Assembly (NCBI GenBank): GCA_013214025.1
Contig: JABSRN010000145.1
Location: 1-51,603 of the forward strand
Direction: 5' to 3'
From: Polyangiaceae bacterium
Lineage (GTDB): Bacteria; Myxococcota_A; Polyangia; Polyangiales; Polyangiaceae
Length of the DNA: 51,603 nucleotides
The position numbers and the translations under genes are program-made. The notes under the pieces were generated by a model. The model had not been told where the DNA came from and searched no databases. It worked only from the letters and a program-made list of their open reading frames with translations. This document shows positions 11,842-20,530 of this stretch, one piece after another; position 1 is the stretch's first letter; the number at the start of each line of letters is the position of its first letter.

Positions 11842-13728
11842 TCAGGAACCCTCGGTCTCGTCAGCCTTAGGTGCCTCAGCCTCAGCCTCAGCCTTAGGTG
11901 CCTCAGCCTCAGCCTTAGGTGCCTCAGCCTCAGCCTTAGGTGCCTCAGCCTCAGCCTTAGATGCCTCAGCCTCAGATGCTTCGGGCTCGGCTGCCGGAGG
12001 AGCTTCGCTGGTCATCGACTGCAGCTTGTCACCAAGCTGTTCTTTAAGCAGATCACCAAGTGTGCCGCTCGAGTTCTCCGTGGAGCGCTTTACCGCAGTC
12101 AAACGGTCCGCCTGGGGGCTGGCACCCACCTCGCGAAGACTCAAGCTCATTCGGCGATCGATGGCGTCAATGCTGGAGACTTCGGCCTTCACATCCGCCC
12201 CCACCTCGAACGCCATGCCCTGGGGCATGTCGGTGTTCTGGATGATGCCCTCGACGCCATTCTCGACACGAACGAAAAGGCCGTAATCGGCAACGCTGAT
12301 GATCTTGCACTTTTCGATCACGGTGCCGGCCGGGTAGCGATCCATCAGATCGCCCCAGGGGTCGTCGTGAATCTGCTTCACGCCCAGGCTGACCTTCTTT
12401 TCGTCATGGTTGATCGAAAGGATGATGGCCTCGACGTCGTCGCCCTTCTCGTAGAAATCGCCGGGGTTGTTTACCCGAACGGTCCAGGAAAGGTCGGTCT
12501 TGTGAACCATGCCGTCCACGCCGTCTTCTATTCCGACGAATACGCCGTACTCGGTCAGGCTGCGGACCTTGCCGTCGATCTTGTCGCCGGGGGTGTACTT
12601 GTCGGCGAAGACGGTCCAGGGATCCGGCTCCAACTGCTTGAGGCCAAGACTGATGCGCTTGCTCCGAGGATCGACCTCAAGAACCTGACACTCCACCTCC
12701 TGGGCGGGCTCAAGCACCTTCGACGGGTGCTTGATCTTCTTGGTCCAGCTCATCTCGGAAACGTGGATGAGGCCTTCGACGCCCGGCTCCAGCTCGACGA
12801 ATGCGCCGTAGTCCGTGATGCTCATGACCTTGCCGCTGACCTTCTTGCCGAGGGGGTAAGCTTCGGCAGCGTGGTTCCACGGATCTTCCTGGGTCTGCTT
12901 CATGCCCAGGCTGACGCGCTCGCTCTCGGCGTTGTACTTGAGCACCTTGACGGTAACCGTGTCGCCGACCTTGAACACCTCGCTGGGGTGGTTGACCCGG
13001 CCCCAGGACATGTCCGTGATGTGCAGCAAGCCGTCGATCCCTCCGAGGTCGACGAATGCGCCGTACTCGGTGAGGTTCTTGATGGTGCCGTCCAGAACCA
13101 TGCCTTCGGCTAGGGTCTGCAGGGTCTTCTGCTTCATCTCGTCCCGCTCGCGCTCGAGCAGTACACGACGAGAGAGCACGATGTTGCCGCGCTTCTTGTT
13201 GAACTTGATGACCTTAAACTCGTAGGTCTGGCCGATCAGCTTGTCCAGGTTCCGTACGGGACGGAGATCCACCTGGGAGCCGGGCAGGAATGCTTTGACG
13301 CCACCGCGGATGGTGACCGACAGGCCGCCCTTTACACGCTGGGTGATGGTGCCTTCGATGATCTCGTCGCGCTCGCAGGCGCCAGCGATCTCGTCCCACA
13401 CCTTCATGCGATCGGCCTTCTCTTTGGAAAGCTTGATCAGGCCGTCGTCGGTCTCGCGACTCTCAACGAAGACGTCGATGCGATCGCCCGCGGCGACGGT
13501 GGTCTGGCCCTGGGGATCCGTAAACTCGCTCTTGGAGATGAGCCCTTCGCTCTTACCGCCGATATCGACAATGACCGCGTCTCGCGAGACGTGGACAACC
13601 AGGCCTGAGATGATCTGGCCTTCTCCTCCCTTTTTGATTTCGGTGTCAGCATCTTTAACGATCTGAGCTTCGAACATTGCGGCAAAGCCGCCGTCGTCAG
13701 TGGTGGGAGAGGTTTGAAGTTCGGTCAT
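11842..13728 (-). CDS. rpsA: 30S ribosomal protein S1
   Basis: A 628-aa protein with six S1 OB-fold domains, the number found in E. coli S1. Starts of the domains are recognisable as GQIISGLVVHVSRDAVIVDI, GTITQRVKGGLSVTI, GTIKNLTEYGAFVDLGGIDG, GKVMSITDYGAFVELEPGVE, GKVRSLTEYGVFVGIEDGVD and CKIISVADYGLFVRVENGVE. Domains 3-6 have the RNA-binding YGAFV-type strand. S1 helps mRNA bind the 30S subunit. The C-terminal ~70 residues are a repetitive Ala/Glu/Lys/Pro tail (EAPKAEAEAPKAEAEAPKAE) not part of the family fold. It is the last core gene of the hisC-aroA-cmk-rpsA block. ATG 13728 starts 13 residues before the first recognisable family sequence. Confidence 0.96.
   Translation of the reverse strand: MTELQTSPTTDDGGFAAMFEAQIVKDADTEIKKGGEGQIISGLVVHVSRDAVIVDIGGKSEGLISKSEFTDPQGQTTVAAGDRIDVFVESRETDDGLIKLSKEKADRMKVWDEIAGACERDEIIEGTITQRVKGGLSVTIRGGVKAFLPGSQVDLRPVRNLDKLIGQTYEFKVIKFNKKRGNIVLSRRVLLERERDEMKQKTLQTLAEGMVLDGTIKNLTEYGAFVDLGGIDGLLHITDMSWGRVNHPSEVFKVGDTVTVKVLKYNAESERVSLGMKQTQEDPWNHAAEAYPLGKKVSGKVMSITDYGAFVELEPGVEGLIHVSEMSWTKKIKHPSKVLEPAQEVECQVLEVDPRSKRISLGLKQLEPDPWTVFADKYTPGDKIDGKVRSLTEYGVFVGIEDGVDGMVHKTDLSWTVRVNNPGDFYEKGDDVEAIILSINHDEKKVSLGVKQIHDDPWGDLMDRYPAGTVIEKCKIISVADYGLFVRVENGVEGIIQNTDMPQGMAFEVGADVKAEVSSIDAIDRRMSLSLREVGASPQADRLTAVKRSTENSSGTLGDLLKEQLGDKLQSMTSEAPPAAEPEASEAEASKAEAEAPKAEAEAPKAEAEAPKAEAEAEAPKADETEGS
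11862..11978 (-). repeat. 21-27-bp tandem repeats in the rpsA 3' end
   Basis: Plus-strand unit GTGCCTCAGCCTCAGCCTTAG occurs three times in a row (11898-11918, 11919-11939, 11940-11960), preceded by a 27-nt variant (11871-11897) and followed by a diverged copy. It encodes the APKAEAE heptad repeats of the S1 tail. Copy number is likely to vary between strains. Confidence 0.85.
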
Positions 13729-13969: not shown

Positions 13970-14956
13970 CTAGCGCGCCAGGCGAACCATATCGGCCAGA
14001 CTTCTAGCCCCGCGGTCAATCTCCGTAGCCTCTAGAAACGTAGTAATTTTAACCACTTGCTCGTCTTTCGCGCTGAGCTGCGCGCGAGTCAGCATGGACC
14101 GCTCCCCCGCCACGTCGTCCCCTGGGAGGAAGCCTGCGGCAAGCCGGAGCGGCGCCAACAGGGTCTCAAGCCGACTTTTCAGGTCGGCGGCGGACACGCC
14201 ATCCCGCAACTCCAGCGAGGCCTGAAGGATCGCGTTTTCCTCGAAACGAACTGACCCGACGACACGTTTTACATCGCTCAGCTGAGTCAGTCGGGCGAGC
14301 ATTCCTCGGGCCGGACCCGAGCTGCCGTCGAATAGCGACCCGCTGAGAGCGAATCCGCCGGCGCCCTTCATCGGCAGGCCCATGTTTTCAGCAACGTCGT
14401 TGGCCGGCAATGACGCTCGAACCACCGCTTCACTAAGCCCGATGATCAACACGCCGTCATCCGCTTGGGCGAGGTGAAGGCCAAACTTCCCCGCCCCGAA
14501 ACTGAGAATTTCAGAGTCGTCCGCCAACTCGGTGGGGTGCCCTTCGGTTTCGAACATCTCGTCGATTTTCCGCACGACGTTCACGCTCGAGAATTTTCCG
14601 CCGAGGATCATCACGAAGTCGGTGCTGCCCTGTCCGTTGGCCACCACGACCTCTCGTATATCTCGGGCCACATCGATCCCCGTCGCTTCACGTATCCGTT
14701 CGCGGCGCCCTTTCGGGTCCGGCGTCCCGCCTAGATCGAGCAACGGCAAGAGATGTTTTCGGACGGGACCGTAGAGCAGAACTCGTTCGGTATCGAGACG
14801 AGCCGCCATGGTCGCGCCGGGAGGAACATGCTGCCACGCCGATCGGCTGTAGTGAAAGAAATGGAAGTAGGCGAAGACGCCCGCACACAATAATCCGCCC
14901 AACAGCGTCACACCCCAAATAAGGCCGTTCAATTTCGCTCCCTTTCCGCGCGCCAT
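13970..14956 (-). CDS. Membrane-anchored protein, envelope family copy 1
   Basis: A 328-aa protein of unknown function. A basic N-terminus is followed by one transmembrane helix (GLIWGVTLLGGLLCAGVFAY, about 10-32), so the bulk lies outside the cytosol. The exported part begins VPPGATMAARLDTERVL, then REATGIDVARDIREVVVA, a FVMILGGKFSS strand, a DGVLIIGLSEAVVRASL segment and VRFEENAILQASLELRDG. The same order of elements is seen in the genes at 15131-16081 and 18297-19457, so I regard the three as diverged relatives. ATG 14956 is chosen over 15004 because it places the helix near the N-terminus. It lies between copy 2 and rpsA on the same strand. Confidence 0.75.
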   Translation of the reverse strand: MARGKGAKLNGLIWGVTLLGGLLCAGVFAYFHFFHYSRSAWQHVPPGATMAARLDTERVLLYGPVRKHLLPLLDLGGTPDPKGRRERIREATGIDVARDIREVVVANGQGSTDFVMILGGKFSSVNVVRKIDEMFETEGHPTELADDSEILSFGAGKFGLHLAQADDGVLIIGLSEAVVRASLPANDVAENMGLPMKGAGGFALSGSLFDGSSGPARGMLARLTQLSDVKRVVGSVRFEENAILQASLELRDGVSAADLKSRLETLLAPLRLAAGFLPGDDVAGERSMLTRAQLSAKDEQVVKITTFLEATEIDRGARSLADMVRLAR

Positions 14957-15130
14957 GGCCCGATCATAGAGTGTCAGGCTCTCTGCAGCTAGTGCGCGAT
15001 TCACTAAGGAACCGCGACCATAAAGATCCTGCGGCAGATATGAGCTTGTGCTTACACCTTCAAGTCACTCTCACCCAAGTGAGCCAATGACTCGATTGCC
15101 CTTCAGTGTATCTGAATCCCGCACTAGCCG

Positions 15131-16081
15131 CTAAAAACCGCAGCGCCCGAAAGCGCACGCGAGCAAGGCGGCCCCCTGGGCGTCGCTGACCGCCACCTCG
15201 GCTAACACGTCGGTCTCGGCGGCTTTCACGTCCACCGCTTTCAATAGAGGCCCGAAGCTACCGGCACGTTGCCCCAACAGTAGCAACGCGAGGCTCAGTT
15301 GATCGGCTGCCGAATGGGCGGACTCCTTGTCAGCATAGTTCAGCTCCAGATACATCCGGTAGCCCTCGCCCTCTGCGACAATTCGTGAGCGGGCGGAAGT
15401 CGCGCTCTCCAGCCAACGCAGCGGAACCCCCGCCTCGTCCAGGGCATTGCCCCACGCCGCCGACCGCAGCGCAATGGACGCCATGCCCCGGGCGGGCGGA
15501 CGCAATCCCTCAGTACTGAGCCGTCCTCTCAGCAACGCGTCCATCGAGTCAATCTCAGCGCGAGATAGCAGCACACGCAGGTGATCGCCGTAGGCGTAGA
15601 GTCGCTCGGGCCCACCCCGTCCGAGGGCCACCCGGCTATAGCGCCGCCAGTCACCACCGAGATCTACTGGCGCTTGCCAGACGTTCTCTCCTGCGAAATC
15701 CCGAGGGTTGACCTCTCGATAGTTTCCTCGCAACACGAGCACGTTATCCAGCGCATCAGGCCCGCGTGCGCTGTCGCCCGGCGGACGAATAGCGAACCAC
15801 AGGGCGGAGGATTGGCGAAGCAAGCTCGTGACCAATGCGCGCGCTGGCGGATCGTCTTCGGCTACCGCGGGAAGCTCCAGCGCCGCTACAAAGTCGCTCC
15901 CAAAACGACCCCGGAGCTCGTCGAGATCAAGACGGATCGCCAAATCGAGATCGGGCGGAAGCAAGTGCGCCGGCTGTTGCACTGGCGCGGGAGCCGCCGG
16001 GGGCGGTCCGATGGGCTGGGGACCGCACGCGATGAGGACTACAAACCCAAGCCAGATCGCAACCAGGTAGCGACGCCCCAT
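15131..16081 (-). CDS. Lipoprotein, envelope family copy 2
   Basis: A 316-aa predicted lipoprotein: signal with lipobox VVLIAC (Cys19), then a Pro/Ala/Gln linker. The body begins LLPPDLDLAIRLDLDELRG, with SALWFAIRPPGD, NVLVLRGNYREVNPRDF, GDHLRVLLSRAEIDSMDALL, MASIALRSAAWG and YRMYLELNYADKESAHSAA in the same order as the matching elements in copies 1 and 3. Function unknown. It starts only 3 nt after the cmk stop, and its GGGGAG ribosome site lies inside the end of cmk, so translation is probably coupled to cmk. No catalytic motif is visible. Confidence 0.78.
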   Translation of the reverse strand: MGRRYLVAIWLGFVVLIACGPQPIGPPPAAPAPVQQPAHLLPPDLDLAIRLDLDELRGRFGSDFVAALELPAVAEDDPPARALVTSLLRQSSALWFAIRPPGDSARGPDALDNVLVLRGNYREVNPRDFAGENVWQAPVDLGGDWRRYSRVALGRGGPERLYAYGDHLRVLLSRAEIDSMDALLRGRLSTEGLRPPARGMASIALRSAAWGNALDEAGVPLRWLESATSARSRIVAEGEGYRMYLELNYADKESAHSAADQLSLALLLLGQRAGSFGPLLKAVDVKAAETDVLAEVAVSDAQGAALLACAFGRCGF

Positions 16082-16084
16082 GAC

Positions 16085-16777
16085 TCACTCCCCTTCGATA
16101 CGCCGAACCGCTTCCGCCATGAGCTGCACCACTTCGTCGATGGTCTGCTCCGTGCTGTCCACTAGAACGGCATCGTCCGCTTGCTTGAGCGGCGCCACCG
16201 GACGTGTCGAATCGCGCCGGTCCCGTTCCTTCACGTCGGCGGCCACTTCTTCCAAGCTGGTCGTATCGCCGCGCGCCAACAATTCTTTGTGACGACGCGC
16301 CGATCGGGTGTTGACTGACGCCGTTAGAAAAAACTTGGCTGGAGCCTGGGGGAAAACCACGGTTCCAATGTCTCGGCCTTCAACGACCACGCCGCCTTTG
16401 TCGCCAACGCTGCGCTGTAGATCCATCAGGGCCGCGCGCACTTCGGGGATCGCGGAGACACGGCTGGCCGCTTGGCTATTTTCAGGGGTACGGATTGCCA
16501 CGCTGACGTCTTCGCCGTCGAGCCAAACGCTTTGGCTGCCATCTTCGTTACGACGAAATTCGATGGAAGAATTCGCTGCTAGCTGCTGGGCTACTTCAGC
16601 GACCTTCGCCGGCTCCGCCTCTACACCCGCGCGGGTCGCGGCCAAGCCAACACACCGATAGAGAGCGCCTGTGTCGAGGAGTAGGTAGTTCAGCTCTTGG
16701 GCTAGAAGTTTGGAGACTGTGCTCTTGCCCGCGCCGGCGGGTCCGTCGATGGCGACGACTACTCGTGATTTACTCAT
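16085..16777 (-). CDS. cmk: Cytidylate kinase
   Basis: A 230-aa cytosolic kinase that converts CMP/dCMP to the diphosphates with ATP. It shows the N-terminal P-loop VVAIDGPAGAGKSTVSK, the substrate segment LLDTGALYRCVGLAA, VWLDGEDVSVAIRTPE, the conserved VVEGRDIGTVVFPQAPAKFF and the LID region RDRRDSTRPVAPLKQADDAV followed by DSTEQTIDEVV. The length matches the family (about 225 aa). ATG 16777 is chosen since the P-loop strand begins 4 residues later; the longer frame to 16831 has no homology. The position after the aroA homologue and before rpsA is the classical arrangement in Proteobacteria. Confidence 0.96.
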   Translation of the reverse strand: MSKSRVVVAIDGPAGAGKSTVSKLLAQELNYLLLDTGALYRCVGLAATRAGVEAEPAKVAEVAQQLAANSSIEFRRNEDGSQSVWLDGEDVSVAIRTPENSQAASRVSAIPEVRAALMDLQRSVGDKGGVVVEGRDIGTVVFPQAPAKFFLTASVNTRSARRHKELLARGDTTSLEEVAADVKERDRRDSTRPVAPLKQADDAVLVDSTEQTIDEVVQLMAEAVRRIEGE

Positions 16778-16917
16778 GGTTGCCTGGGGATGATGAGGGG
16801 ATCGAGGGCGTTTGACTAGCGAGCAATTCACTTCTCTTGATGGGAATCGCTACCATAATACTTTTCGTCAGAGACAGAACCGAAGCCATCTTTTCGATCG
16901 TGTTTCCGAATCGCGCA

Positions 16918-18291
16918 CTAGCTTCCATTTGTCGCGTCCTCGCTTTCGACGCTCAAGTTGGCACCTAGCGCCTTAAAAGTGCCGACCATTCGTGGGAATA
17001 CGTTGGCGATTCCGTCGATGCCCGAGATCACGCTCTCGCCGTCGGCCAGCAGGGCCAAGGATAAGGCCAGCAGAATCAACTGCGGATCGTCAGCCGCATC
17101 TACTGTCGCTGCCCGAAGCTGAGCATTGGGATCGCCGTCTATCTGCAGGACGCCATCGGAGAGCCCGGCGCGCACTCCAAAACGAAGAAGCAACTCCGCG
17201 GTGCGTCCCGCGATCTCAGGATTGTCCGTCGTCTCCAGCTGCTCAAGGGACAGTTCGCTTCGGCCTTGGGCTCTGACACTCAGCAGCGCCAATATTGGAA
17301 ATTCGTTCACCGTGCGACAGCTGAGCTCCCCTTCTAGATTCAGTGCTCGCAGCCCGGCGCCCAGCATCGTCAGCTCCCCGACTGGCTCGCCCCCTCGATG
17401 ACCTTCAGCGCGTACGTTGAGCCCGGCCCCCATCGCCTTGAAGACGTCCAACACCCCCGCCCTACTGGGATTGATGCCGGTGCGGCGTATGACGACATGA
17501 CTGTCCGGCACCACCGCAGCTGACGCCAATAGCCAGGAAGCCAACGTGATGTCCCCCGGCAACTCCATCTCGAAGGGCGCAATGTCGGCGTTCGGCTCTG
17601 GCGGCTCCAGACATAACAGGCTGGCCGCGCGACTCAGCCGAAAGCCGACGGTATCCAACAAGCGCTCCGTGTGATCTCTGGTGACGACAGATTCCACCAC
17701 CTGGGTCGGGCCGCTGGCGAACAATCCGGCAAACAGCAAGGCGCTCTTGATGCCCGGCTGACAAACATCGAGTTGATAATCGCCGCCCGGCGCCAGTGCA
17801 TTCCCAGTGGCACCGTTAAACTGCACCGGTGGGAACAGCTCTCCAGTAGAGAAGGTTCCCATGGTGCCGGTCGCCGGAGTGCCAAAGGTGCGCAGGCTCG
17901 CCACCAGAGCATTGCACGGTCGATCCAACAGACGGCCGCTAGCCTTCAGGCGCGTCTTGAACGGCTGCGGCGCGACCAGGCCGCTCAGCAGTTCGAATAC
18001 CTCACGAGAATCTCCGCAGTCGATCTCCGCGCCACTGGGTCGCAGGCCGCGGATCCCCACGCCCTCAATACGGAGAGTGGTGCCGTCGCGTTCGCTAAGC
18101 GCGCCTAGCTGGGCGAGGCCCTGCCGCATCAACTCGTTGTGGCCCGCCCCGCTATAGCCCGAGAGCGTACTGGTGCCATCGCCGAGGGCCGCAAATATCA
18201 GCGCCCGGTTCGCGATGGATACATCGGAGGCGATGGGGACACTACCGTGCAGCGGCGCCTTTTGGGGGCACACCCGAAGTCTGGCCGTCAT
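16918..18291 (-). CDS. EPSP-synthase-like protein with degenerate active site
   Basis: A 457-aa protein with the two-domain AroA (EPSP synthase) fold, in the normal aroA position between hisC and cmk. Fold motifs are kept: SIANRALIFAAL, KSALLFAGLFASGPTQVV, VTRDHTERLL, LPGDITLASWLLASAA, RTGINPSRAGVLDVFKAMGA and VFPRMVGTFKALGA. Catalytic positions are not. The N-terminal PGDKS motif reads ASDVS (Lys to Val), GNSGTTMR reads GDSREVFE, the catalytic Asp of DEFP is Asn (VNEFP), RVKESDR reads ETTDNPE, and the DHR motif reads DDP. I therefore expect no shikimate-pathway activity of the classical kind. The frame is intact and ordinary in codon use, so it is not simply a decaying gene. It starts 5 nt after the stop of the lipoprotein gene. 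An active aroA would have to lie elsewhere. Confidence 0.85.
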   Translation of the reverse strand: MTARLRVCPQKAPLHGSVPIASDVSIANRALIFAALGDGTSTLSGYSGAGHNELMRQGLAQLGALSERDGTTLRIEGVGIRGLRPSGAEIDCGDSREVFELLSGLVAPQPFKTRLKASGRLLDRPCNALVASLRTFGTPATGTMGTFSTGELFPPVQFNGATGNALAPGGDYQLDVCQPGIKSALLFAGLFASGPTQVVESVVTRDHTERLLDTVGFRLSRAASLLCLEPPEPNADIAPFEMELPGDITLASWLLASAAVVPDSHVVIRRTGINPSRAGVLDVFKAMGAGLNVRAEGHRGGEPVGELTMLGAGLRALNLEGELSCRTVNEFPILALLSVRAQGRSELSLEQLETTDNPEIAGRTAELLLRFGVRAGLSDGVLQIDGDPNAQLRAATVDAADDPQLILLALSLALLADGESVISGIDGIANVFPRMVGTFKALGANLSVESEDATNGS

Positions 18292-18296
18292 CGAAA

Positions 18297-19457
18297 CTAT
18301 CGCGGCGCCGGAGCCGGGGTCGGGGAACCTGCGGAGCTCGGGGGGGCAGAACCAGGAGCGGGAGCAACAGGCGCAGATGGACCGGGAGCCGGGGACCCAG
18401 CACCTACGCCAGGAGTAGCATTGGCGCGGACCGGAGCCGTGCCAACACCCACACTGCGGGCGAGATAGTCGATGCCTTTCCGTAAGGTGGTCCCTTCGAG
18501 GCCGAGTACGAATTTCACGTCCGGACCTTCGCTCTCCAGCTGCAAATGTTTGAGCGGTCGACCAAAACCCATGAGGGCTGTCGCCCAGCCCAGGGAGGCC
18601 ATGGACGCCTGCAGCGCTTCTAAACCTTGCTTGCCACTAGCAGCTTGGGGTTCATCGCTGTAGGTGAGCGTCCCCGCGAAGTTCATGCCCGGTGCTTTGA
18701 AATTGCCGAGCAGACGCAAAGACTTCAGACCCGTTAGGAAGGGAAACCGTTTCGCCGCGCTGGCAAGCTCGGGGTGCTCCGACACATCGATACCGCCCAC
18801 GATGGCTGCGTTGTCGTCCGCGATGGCGTCTTCCAGCCACGGGTCGAGCTCACGTTTGTTGATGCCCCGCTGCACGCGATCGAGCGCCCGCCGCATGCCC
18901 GTGACGTTGCCAAAGAGGGCGGTCTTTTCTGTGAGGATAACGAAACCTATGTCTTGGGTCGTGAACAGCCAGCGCCCCGCATATTGACTCTTACTGAGCG
19001 GAGTCCCGAGCGGGGTGATGGTGACGCCATCTGCCGCCACCTCGATAGCCTCAGCGTTGAAGGTACCCGTCGCCACAGCGGCGACGTCGGCTCCTTGCAA
19101 GGAATAAACGCCGATGTGCAATCGGTCTAGATCTCGGCCGGGCTCGAAACCAGCGGACGCAGGAATGGGCAATCGGGCTTCCGCTATCCGCCGGAGCTGC
19201 TCGCCCACCGCCGACGCAAACATCGCCTTGGCGTCCAGGTTGAGCGCGCCAATCGCGCCGCCGGGAAGCAGGGCCAAGGGATCCGCGTCGATTTCCCGTT
19301 CGCCCAGCTCGTCCCCCTCCGCCGTCTTGACAACTACATCGCCTTCTTTGGAGCAGCCCATGGCGGGCAGAAGCGCCAGGCTGAGCATGGCTGCTGTGAG
19401 AAGTGACAGGCGACGGCGCCTTCTGTTCGAATCGTTGTGGAGCATTTGTAGTTTCAC
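18297..19457 (-). CDS. Lipoprotein, envelope family copy 3
   Basis: A 386-aa predicted lipoprotein with an Arg-rich n-region, hydrophobic core and lipobox LPAMGC (Cys35). The exported body begins LALLPGGAIGALNLDAKAMF, followed by LDRLHIGVYSLQGADVAAVA, TEKTALFGNVTGMRRALDRV, NAAIVGGIDVSEHPELA and FAGTLTYSDEPQAASG, the same layout as copies 1 and 2. The last ~45 residues are a Pro/Ala/Gly/Ser tail. The start is GTG 19457: its first bases overlap the hisC stop (GTGA), and a strong GGGGAGGTG ribosome site lies 6 nt upstream inside hisC, so it is translationally coupled to hisC. Function unknown. Confidence 0.8.
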   Translation of the reverse strand: MKLQMLHNDSNRRRRRLSLLTAAMLSLALLPAMGCSKEGDVVVKTAEGDELGEREIDADPLALLPGGAIGALNLDAKAMFASAVGEQLRRIAEARLPIPASAGFEPGRDLDRLHIGVYSLQGADVAAVATGTFNAEAIEVAADGVTITPLGTPLSKSQYAGRWLFTTQDIGFVILTEKTALFGNVTGMRRALDRVQRGINKRELDPWLEDAIADDNAAIVGGIDVSEHPELASAAKRFPFLTGLKSLRLLGNFKAPGMNFAGTLTYSDEPQAASGKQGLEALQASMASLGWATALMGFGRPLKHLQLESEGPDVKFVLGLEGTTLRKGIDYLARSVGVGTAPVRANATPGVGAGSPAPGPSAPVAPAPGSAPPSSAGSPTPAPAPR

Positions 19458-20530
19458 GCGAGCACCTCCCCGAGGGCTGTAAGAAAGCGCTGGTTCTCTG
19501 CCGGCAAGCCTACCGTGACGCGAATCTGCGCGCCGGCGAAGGCGCGAACAATCACGCCTTTTTGTAGAAGGGCGTCATACAGGGAAGCGGCTGAAATAGG
19601 CGCTTCGAAAAACAGGAAATTGCCTTGGCTCGGTACCGGCTCGATTCCCAGATTTTGGAGACCAGCGGCCAGCCGGCTTCGCTCGCTTTCGTTCAGCTCG
19701 CGGCTCCGACTCACGTGGTCGGTATCGGCCAAGGCTGCCAGGGCCGCGACTTGACCAACAATGCCGACGTTGAAGGGCGCACGAACCCGATGCATGTAGC
19801 CGACGAGCTCGGCGTCGCCGATGGCGTAACCGACTCGGAAGGCCGCGAGTCCGTGGATCTTGGAGAAAGTGCGTAGAACAACGAGCTTCTTGTGTAGGCC
19901 GCGGTTTTTCAATCCGTCGGGGTAGTCGGCCGCCGTAGCGTATTCGAAATAGGCCTCGTCCAGGGCGACGATCACGTGGTCGGGTACTGCAGTGAGGAAT
20001 CGCCCTAGAGCCCCCTGCCCGACGTGAGTGCCTGTGGGGTTGTTGGGGTTAGCTATGAACACGAGCCGCGTCTTGTCGGTGATGGCCGCCAGCATGGCAT
20101 CGAGATCGTGCACCTGATTCCGCAGGGGCACGGCCGTGAACGGCACCCCGTGAGCGAGGGCCGCCATGCGATACACAACGAAAGACGGCTCCGCGAATAC
20201 GATATGCTGCTCCGGCGTCGTGAAGGTCCGAACGAGAAGTTCGAGAATCTCGTTGGAGCCGTTGCCTTGAATCAGCTCGTCCATCGAGACGCCGTGCTGC
20301 CGAGCCAGCTCTGTGCGCAGCGCATGGGCAGAAGCGTCCGGGTAACGATGGGCTCCCGACAATGCCGCCGCGGCGGCCTCAAGAGCTTTCGGACTCGGGC
20401 CAAGCGGGTTCTCGTTGGACGCCAGCTTGATAACGTCGGCGATGCCGAGCTCGCGGGTCACCTCTTCGATCGGTTTGCCCGCGGCGTAAGGGCGAAGAGT
20501 CTCTATTCCCGGGGATACCAACGACGACAT
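19454..20530 (-). CDS. hisC: Histidinol-phosphate/aromatic aminotransferase
   Basis: A 358-aa fold-type I PLP enzyme that interconverts imidazole-acetol phosphate and histidinol phosphate; in this operon position such enzymes often also act on prephenate or aromatic keto acids. Motifs: IKLASNENPLGPSPKAL, QGNGSNEILELLVRTF, VFIANPNNPTGTH, ALDEAYFEYA, and the PLP lysine in VVLRTFSKIHGLAAFRVGYA (Lys224), followed by RAPFNVGIVGQ and a C-terminal VIVRAFAGAQIRVTVGLPAEN. Length and motifs are complete. It is the first gene of the minus-strand block hisC, lipoprotein, aroA-like, cmk, lipoprotein, membrane protein, rpsA. No other his gene is nearby, which favours a broad or aromatic role (inference). 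Confidence 0.9.
   Translation of the reverse strand: MSSLVSPGIETLRPYAAGKPIEEVTRELGIADVIKLASNENPLGPSPKALEAAAAALSGAHRYPDASAHALRTELARQHGVSMDELIQGNGSNEILELLVRTFTTPEQHIVFAEPSFVVYRMAALAHGVPFTAVPLRNQVHDLDAMLAAITDKTRLVFIANPNNPTGTHVGQGALGRFLTAVPDHVIVALDEAYFEYATAADYPDGLKNRGLHKKLVVLRTFSKIHGLAAFRVGYAIGDAELVGYMHRVRAPFNVGIVGQVAALAALADTDHVSRSRELNESERSRLAAGLQNLGIEPVPSQGNFLFFEAPISAASLYDALLQKGVIVRAFAGAQIRVTVGLPAENQRFLTALGEVLA

Follow-up and report, generated by a model that had tools for sequence, protein, structure and literature searches.

A degenerate EPSP-synthase homologue kept ahead of cmk in Polyangiaceae, with a second AroA elsewhere in the genome

Introduction

EPSP synthase (AroA) is among the most studied enzymes and is the target of glyphosate. 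Pseudoenzymes in general are proteins in which catalytic residues have been lost while the fold, and selection on it, have been kept. The 51,603-nucleotide stretch of DNA analysed here (the window; contig JABSRN010000145.1 of the Polyangiaceae bacterium assembly GCA_013214025.1, genome G000) carries an open reading frame of the EPSP-synthase family in the place that aroA normally occupies ahead of cmk, and the motifs of its active site appear to have been replaced. An earlier note, made from the letters of the window, had proposed an EPSP-synthase pseudoenzyme with a new, perhaps regulatory or structural, role. The locus raises two questions: whether the gene still specifies an EPSP synthase and, if it does not, why it has been kept.

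Materials and Methods

Eighteen sites were tabulated: 17 that bind shikimate-3-phosphate or PEP or take part in catalysis, assigned by motif, and the Lys of the VKS motif; their numbering and roles are those of the E. coli enzyme. The references were 29 operonic AroAs of the same order (L005 to L033), the best other matches returned as loci. They form the upper part of a set of matches spanning 55 of 57 genomes, 9 of the 29 come from the window's family, and one (L018) has a TGA inside its match. The Ser169 column was unstable in the alignment of second AroAs and was left out for those proteins. The structure predictor was given an alignment of the window protein with 19 AroA relatives.

The census covered 108 genomes of the window's family, with PF00275 matches listed down to ∼324 bits. 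Full match lists were obtained for 83 of the 108 (60 plus 25, two shared), including every genome with at least three matches; low-scoring copies are possible in the other 25, and counts of degenerate copies are therefore lower bounds. Two genomes with fragments (G083 and G102), G138 (first 460 residues, with a broken alignment), and G146 (contig end) were not counted among the full-length copies, and a partial second match in one genome (G137b) was left out of the site table.

Omega was estimated by a purpose-written pairwise codon likelihood, above all for pairs of degenerate copies; G097-G148, G060-G097, and G126-G127, which gave meaningless lengths in at least one gene, were left out. In the neutral simulation, decay of the window protein proceeded to its own number of kept invariant columns outside the active site (49 of 84), and base composition was partly assumed for lineages other than G000. 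The tree was built from cmk, rpsA, and hisC of 58 genomes (58, 37, and 17 with each gene, respectively) and rooted at the midpoint; G146 and G147 were not included.

Results and Discussion

Loss of the active site

The gene is read from the minus strand, starts with ATG, and runs for 457 codons with no internal stop. Its product matches PF00275 with 128 bits (cut-off, 22.8) over residues 11 to 436 and profile positions 4 to 414 of 417, and it thus exceeds the gathering score of the family across its whole length. The earlier claim of an EPSP-synthase homologue with an intact frame agrees with both results, the strand being an addition to it. Against TIGR01356, the aroA equivalog model, the protein reaches 149.9 bits, below the cut-off of 287.25 that marks membership of AroA. 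An AlphaFold model (mean pLDDT, 90.9; pTM, 0.90) has the two-domain EPSP-synthase fold, with the EPSP synthase 3slh as its top structural match (Z, 52.0; rmsd, 1.7 Å; 431 residues) and with a similar fit to the CP4 enzyme 2gg6 (Z, 50.2; rmsd, 1.8 Å; 433 residues). Because the predictor worked from an alignment of AroA relatives, the model indicates a sequence compatible with the fold and is not stand-alone proof of it.

The window protein keeps 4 of the 17 active-site residues, or 5 of 18 when the VKS Lys is counted, whereas all 29 references keep 18 of 18. In 21 family genomes, of which 13 contribute none of the 29 references, the operonic AroA likewise has all 18 sites. Among 80 AroA relatives from named genomes that served as a control, 64 had 18 sites, 12 had 17, and 2 had 16, the last sites not being covered in the remaining two; in this set, which came from an alignment-based scan, every AroA with all sites covered thus has at least 16 of 18, the Sorangium copy standing at 16. 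Every substitution that the earlier note had read by eye (ASDVS, GDSREVFE, VNEFP, ETTDNPE, and DDP) is present in the translation, and its statement that the catalytic residues are lost withstands the comparison with the references. Catalytic residues in shifted positions were ruled out: the phmmer alignment with the solved AroA 3roi is in register at each motif.

By every sequence test applied, the window protein is an EPSP-synthase pseudoenzyme. It is an enzyme homologue that has lost its catalytic residues, and it is kept by selection rather than decaying, as judged by omega in its relatives and by a neutral simulation and an invariant-column contrast for the window protein itself (see below). 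That part of the earlier reading stands; the new role that it proposed is one possibility, and an old second role of AroA fits equally well. We infer that the window protein no longer makes EPSP and that its retained function is non-catalytic.

The gene row

The gene lies in a row of genes on the same strand, in the order hisC, DUFa, aroA, cmk, DUFb, DUFc, rpsA (Table 1). The start of cmk is GTG at 16831 or, by reading of the sequence, ATG at 16777. The name rpsA was assigned from the sequence and is presumptive, as are the labels FmdB and permease for neighbouring genes.

Table 1. Genes of the row that contains the pseudo-AroA gene, in window coordinates (DUFa, DUFb, and DUFc are our own labels)
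Feature	Position	Strand	Remarks
rpsA-like (ribosomal protein S1)	11842..13728	-	End of the conserved aroA-cmk-rpsA group
DUFc, uncharacterised	13970..15004	-	No Pfam match
DUFb, uncharacterised	15131..16081	-	Downstream of cmk; no Pfam match
cmk, (d)CMP kinase	16085..16831	-	Next downstream; TIGR00017, 228.4 bits (cut-off, 135.55)
Pseudo-AroA, EPSP-synthase fold	16918..18291	-	4/17 active-site residues kept
DUFa, uncharacterised	18297..19457	-	Directly upstream; no Pfam or NCBIfam match
hisC, histidinol-phosphate transaminase	19454..20530	-	Upstream; TIGR01141, 345.7 bits (cut-off, 276.55)

The same degenerate form occurs beside cmk in the operons of related genomes, as the earlier note had suggested might be found. 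With the window included, 33 operonic copies (degenerate, near intact, or fragmentary) were tested, and cmk follows on the same strand in 31. The offset between aroA and cmk is −9 to 141 bases in 29 of these 31, the exceptions being G126 (1,212 bases) and G138 (broken frame). For the two copies without cmk, the contig ends in G146, and a search of the 2.3 kb that follow the gene in G147 gave none.

The three uncharacterised proteins DUFa, DUFb, and DUFc are interleaved with aroA, cmk, and rpsA, and their relatives recur in related genomes. There, DUFa lies upstream of operonic aroA or of cmk.

A second AroA

Three PF00275 genes are present in G000: a MurA-like gene (C152), the window gene, and a second aroA (C136), so that absence of any other aroA from the genome is ruled out. 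The product of the last scores 382.8 bits against TIGR01356, above the cut-off of 287.25, and is the canonical AroA whose search the earlier note had recommended. It carries K22, S23, R27, G96, T97, R100, R124, Q171, D313, E341, R344, H385, and R386, and it departs from the catalytic set by a Thr at Asn94 and a His at Lys340. Both positions also vary in working AroAs, with His in place of Lys340 and a residue other than Asn at 94, as in mycobacterial AroA. Chorismate synthase is also present in the genome. Contamination by the contig that bears the second aroA was considered and rejected on matching composition: its GC content is 0.618 (window, 0.611), and its tetranucleotide correlation with the window is 0.966 over 13.8 kb, within the 0.951 to 0.968 obtained for chunks of the window against another contig of the genome.

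Of the 24 census genomes with a full-length degenerate copy, 23 had their second AroA examined, and all 23 proteins carry the 13 catalytic or ligand residues listed above; the 24th genome (G135) has a match of 377.5 bits. Among 21 genomes with an intact operonic copy, 20 have exactly two PF00275 matches among the matches listed, and the exception (G128) has an additional fragment of 60 positions. In a tree, the second AroAs form three or more groups (supports, 100, 99, and 96) and therefore seem to have arrived more than once.

Two further observations concern these proteins. The second aroA of the Sorangium genus (L081 and L082) is sister, with a support of 100, to copies of genus g56 (L080 and L117 to L122) and does not follow the species, which suggests transfer of the gene inside the family. 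In G098, where operonic aroA is also missing, the second AroA-like protein (L074, G098:C115) reads GQSAVSTR where the GNSGT motif would be expected.

Recurrence of the degenerate state

The census of 108 genomes yielded at least 24, from 10 genera, whose full-length operonic AroA keeps no more than 13 of the 18 sites. The deepest copies, with 1 to 5 sites, occur in genera g1, g71, g41, g75, g72, and g43; two genomes of g4, one of g63, and one of the Sorangium genus (G150) keep 6 or 7. All eight genomes of g56 are intermediate (10 to 13 of 18), and the other five genomes of the Sorangium genus keep 14 to 16. In a second family, the operonic copies of G016 and G029 keep 3 of 18 sites ahead of cmk and rpsA, and the other AroA keeps 16. 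A single-sequence search of named genomes, in which the records nearest to G000 may have been excluded, returned no close relative of the window protein.

In six genomes (G063, G098, G067, G074, G066, and G096), operonic aroA was not found and DUFa adjoins cmk, so the gene is dispensable there, or its job has been replaced. In G075 and G119, neither aroA nor DUFa was found upstream of cmk.

Three genomes or groups of genomes stand apart. G066 (L165), rated 96% complete and without operonic aroA, has a single PF00275 match among the matches listed, and no AroA was found in it. In the nearly complete 13.3-Mb genome G102, operonic aroA was matched in two separate pieces (L069, G102:C1:2726000-2740000), which are the only AroA besides MurA; a sequencing error and a real break are both possible. 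Low-scoring PF00275 copies of G009 and G035 (L268 and L272; family f10) were examined as candidate AroAs and rejected as divergent and MurA-like; G035 has a normal-scoring PF00275 gene in addition to its AroA.

In the tree of the linked genes, intact copies are interspersed among dead ones. G126 and G127 group with the intact G122 and G128 (support, 99), the Sorangium genus is sister to the intact G081 (support, 98), and g41, g71, and g56 fall inside a clade of 18 that includes six intact genomes (support, 97). G000 pairs with G063, which lacks the gene (support, 86), and joins that clade from outside (support, 81). G139 pairs with the intact G032 (support, 73), and the copies of g43, g72, and g75 lie elsewhere in the tree, in which G092 stands apart from G118 and G119 despite the same genus label for all three. 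If loss is irreversible, we estimate from this tree that catalysis was lost about six times in the family and about seven times with the second family included, a count that is soft because several deep nodes have supports below 70 (values at the nodes that matter include 39, 55, 62, 69, and 73).

Proposed explanation

We consider it probable that the window gene encodes a pseudo-EPSP synthase that was freed by a second AroA and has been kept for a non-catalytic job. The ancestor would have carried a normal aroA in the row hisC-aroA-cmk-rpsA and would then have had a second aroA, of another lineage and elsewhere in the genome, that took over chorismate synthesis. Relieved of catalysis, the operonic copy could then have lost the residues for substrate binding and catalysis; the loss itself is seen in the protein, and the order of events is our reconstruction. 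Its fold positions would have been held by purifying selection rather than decaying to noise, presumably because operonic AroA also has a non-catalytic job, which several lineages kept after catalysis was lost. That job would probably be partner binding or the part of a scaffold or regulator. Since the pseudo-aroA stays directly ahead of cmk, Cmk or another product of the row is the first candidate partner, which is a guess. The six genomes without the gene limit how essential its function can be.

A wider proposal, which we put forward tentatively and with less confidence, is that the operonic AroA of the whole order has an old non-catalytic function and that the two functions of AroA were separated about seven times, each time after a second AroA had been gained.

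Selection on the degenerate copies, and alternative explanations

A less likely explanation, though one to be taken seriously, is slow decay: the operonic copy would have become useless once the second AroA was present and would be heading for deletion, its frame surviving only because breaks would cut the expression of cmk and rpsA. The series from intact through intermediate and deep copies to absence within one family would be expected under such decay, and the six genomes without the gene would be its end point. In several relatives, moreover, the stop of aroA overlaps or touches the start of cmk (offsets of −9, −3, and 0). In the window, however, the stop lies 86 or ∼141 bases ahead of the two possible cmk starts, and coupling by overlap is therefore absent there.

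A frame kept only for polarity also predicts an omega near 1, and the degenerate pairs gave values of 0.03 to 0.13, near those of cmk and the second aroA. For pairs of deep copies, omega was 0.115 (G089-G109), 0.059 (G060-G148), and 0.133 (G147-G146, with G146 over 345 codons), and for pairs within g56 it was 0.027 (G131-G136) and 0.030 (G133-G134), with likelihood-ratio values against an omega of 1 of 118 to 454 across the five. In the same pairs, controls gave 0.019 to 0.075 for cmk (four comparable pairs) and 0.025 to 0.095 for the second aroA (all five); the dead copy was faster than the controls in two of the five (0.115 versus 0.067 and 0.095; 0.133 versus 0.075). The pair G149-G150 of the Sorangium genus, of which G150 alone is deep, gave 0.107 (cmk, 0.123), and four intact operonic pairs gave 0.024 to 0.121, G072-G106 being near saturation. 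NG86 ratios were higher, at 0.07 to 0.71 over 57 pairs; none reached 1, and the highest occurred where synonymous sites were saturated.

As the window gene has no close relative, it was tested by an invariant-column contrast and a neutral simulation instead of an omega of its own. In 101 columns that are invariant in the references, the window protein keeps 4 of 17 at the active site versus 49 of 84 elsewhere (Fisher P = 0.0087). With polar residues only, P was 0.14 for the window protein alone and 9e-13 when eight lineages, which are not fully independent, were pooled. The contrast was not significant in two of eight g56 copies and four of six copies of the Sorangium genus. Of 109 hydrophobic columns, 7 are broken in the window protein, far fewer than the neutral mean of 23.5, and none of 300 simulations was as low. 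Among other lineages, the test was also strong in G089, G088, G058, and G127 (0, 1, 1, and 4 simulations of 300 as low), weaker in G139, G147, G092, and G060 (14, 16, 18, and 26), and without signal in G118 (62); G150 gave 208. Slow decay draws some support here, as the number of broken hydrophobic columns in G118 and in some g43 copies comes close to the neutral prediction.

Omega in the relatives and simulation for the window protein show the fold-determining positions to be under purifying selection, and this evidence speaks for a continuing use of the protein in several lineages. The impression recorded in the earlier note, that the frame looks kept under selection, is upheld on both counts. 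We accordingly prefer retention for a non-catalytic job over decay.

Retention could also have another cause, which we regard as improbable: a cleft rebuilt for a new ligand or new chemistry, making the protein a sensor or a different enzyme. Genus g56 speaks for it, as all eight copies carry identical replacements (K to R, A to D, Q to H, and T to V at positions 24, 179, 180, and 430 of the window protein) and keep 9 to 12 of the 17 active-site residues, and as two pairs of them give omegas of 0.027 and 0.030. His385, which corresponds to Pro403 of the window protein, has likewise become Pro in 9 of 16 deep copies; every one of their nine genera is represented, and G016 of the second family shows the same change. 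The change from His to Pro takes a single base (CAY to CCY), however, and its recurrence may be mutational chance or the easiest way to lose the His. Across the columns that once formed the active site, no replacement residue reaches 60% among the 16 deep copies, Pro for His385 coming nearest, which argues against a rebuilt cleft.

Two further explanations are scarcely credible. That the protein is still an EPSP synthase using different residues would suit its fold and gene neighbourhood, but the Lys, Asp, Glu, Arg, and His positions have been lost together, the score lies below the AroA cut-off, and another AroA exists elsewhere in the genome. An artefact of assembly or binning might be suspected of a genome in 184 contigs for which a close relative was not found, but the reading frame is unbroken, the gene stands among its usual neighbours, and the single-contig genome G150 shows the same state.

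Comparison with known systems

With AroA, the nearest solved structures being those of Coxiella burnetii (3slh) and the CP4 enzyme (2gg6), the window protein shares a full-length two-domain fold, as predicted here, the place before cmk, and the Lys of the VKS motif; it differs in that 13 of 17 active-site residues are replaced and its score is under the equivalog cut-off. Like pseudoenzymes in general, it combines lost catalytic residues with a retained fold and selection; here, the loss is parallel and recurrent inside one order.

In one study (PMC1173090), the gene order tyrA-aroF-cmk-rpsA, in which aroF encodes EPSP synthase, is described as old, and Pseudomonas syringae is described as having a tyrA-aroF fusion with a damaged EPSP-synthase domain together with a free-standing aroF, probably gained laterally. 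The two cases are alike in a damaged EPSP-synthase copy in the old gene row and a second copy elsewhere, probably acquired by lateral transfer. They differ in that deletion or truncation of the domain is reported in that study, whereas here the whole open reading frame and the fold persist, the active site is lost, and many lineages are affected. An EPSP-synthase pseudoenzyme was not found in the literature searched, which most subscription journals lie outside, nor was any work on EPSP synthase with Sorangium and glyphosate in that same literature.

Dead but conserved AroAs that arose repeatedly in one order, to which the genus of Sorangium cellulosum belongs, would suggest that AroA has a second role, and the series of intact, intermediate, dead, and absent copies is a ready comparative set for finding it. 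Pseudo-AroA genes would be labelled aroA if annotated from Pfam matches or gene neighbourhood, which would mislead metabolic models and surveys of glyphosate sensitivity.

The Lys of the VKS motif (Lys182 of the window protein) is missing from all 26 tabulated second AroAs. Among the tabulated sites, it alone is never replaced in an operonic copy that extends over it (31 copies), and 29 of 29 references have it as well; it may be a structural or partner contact.
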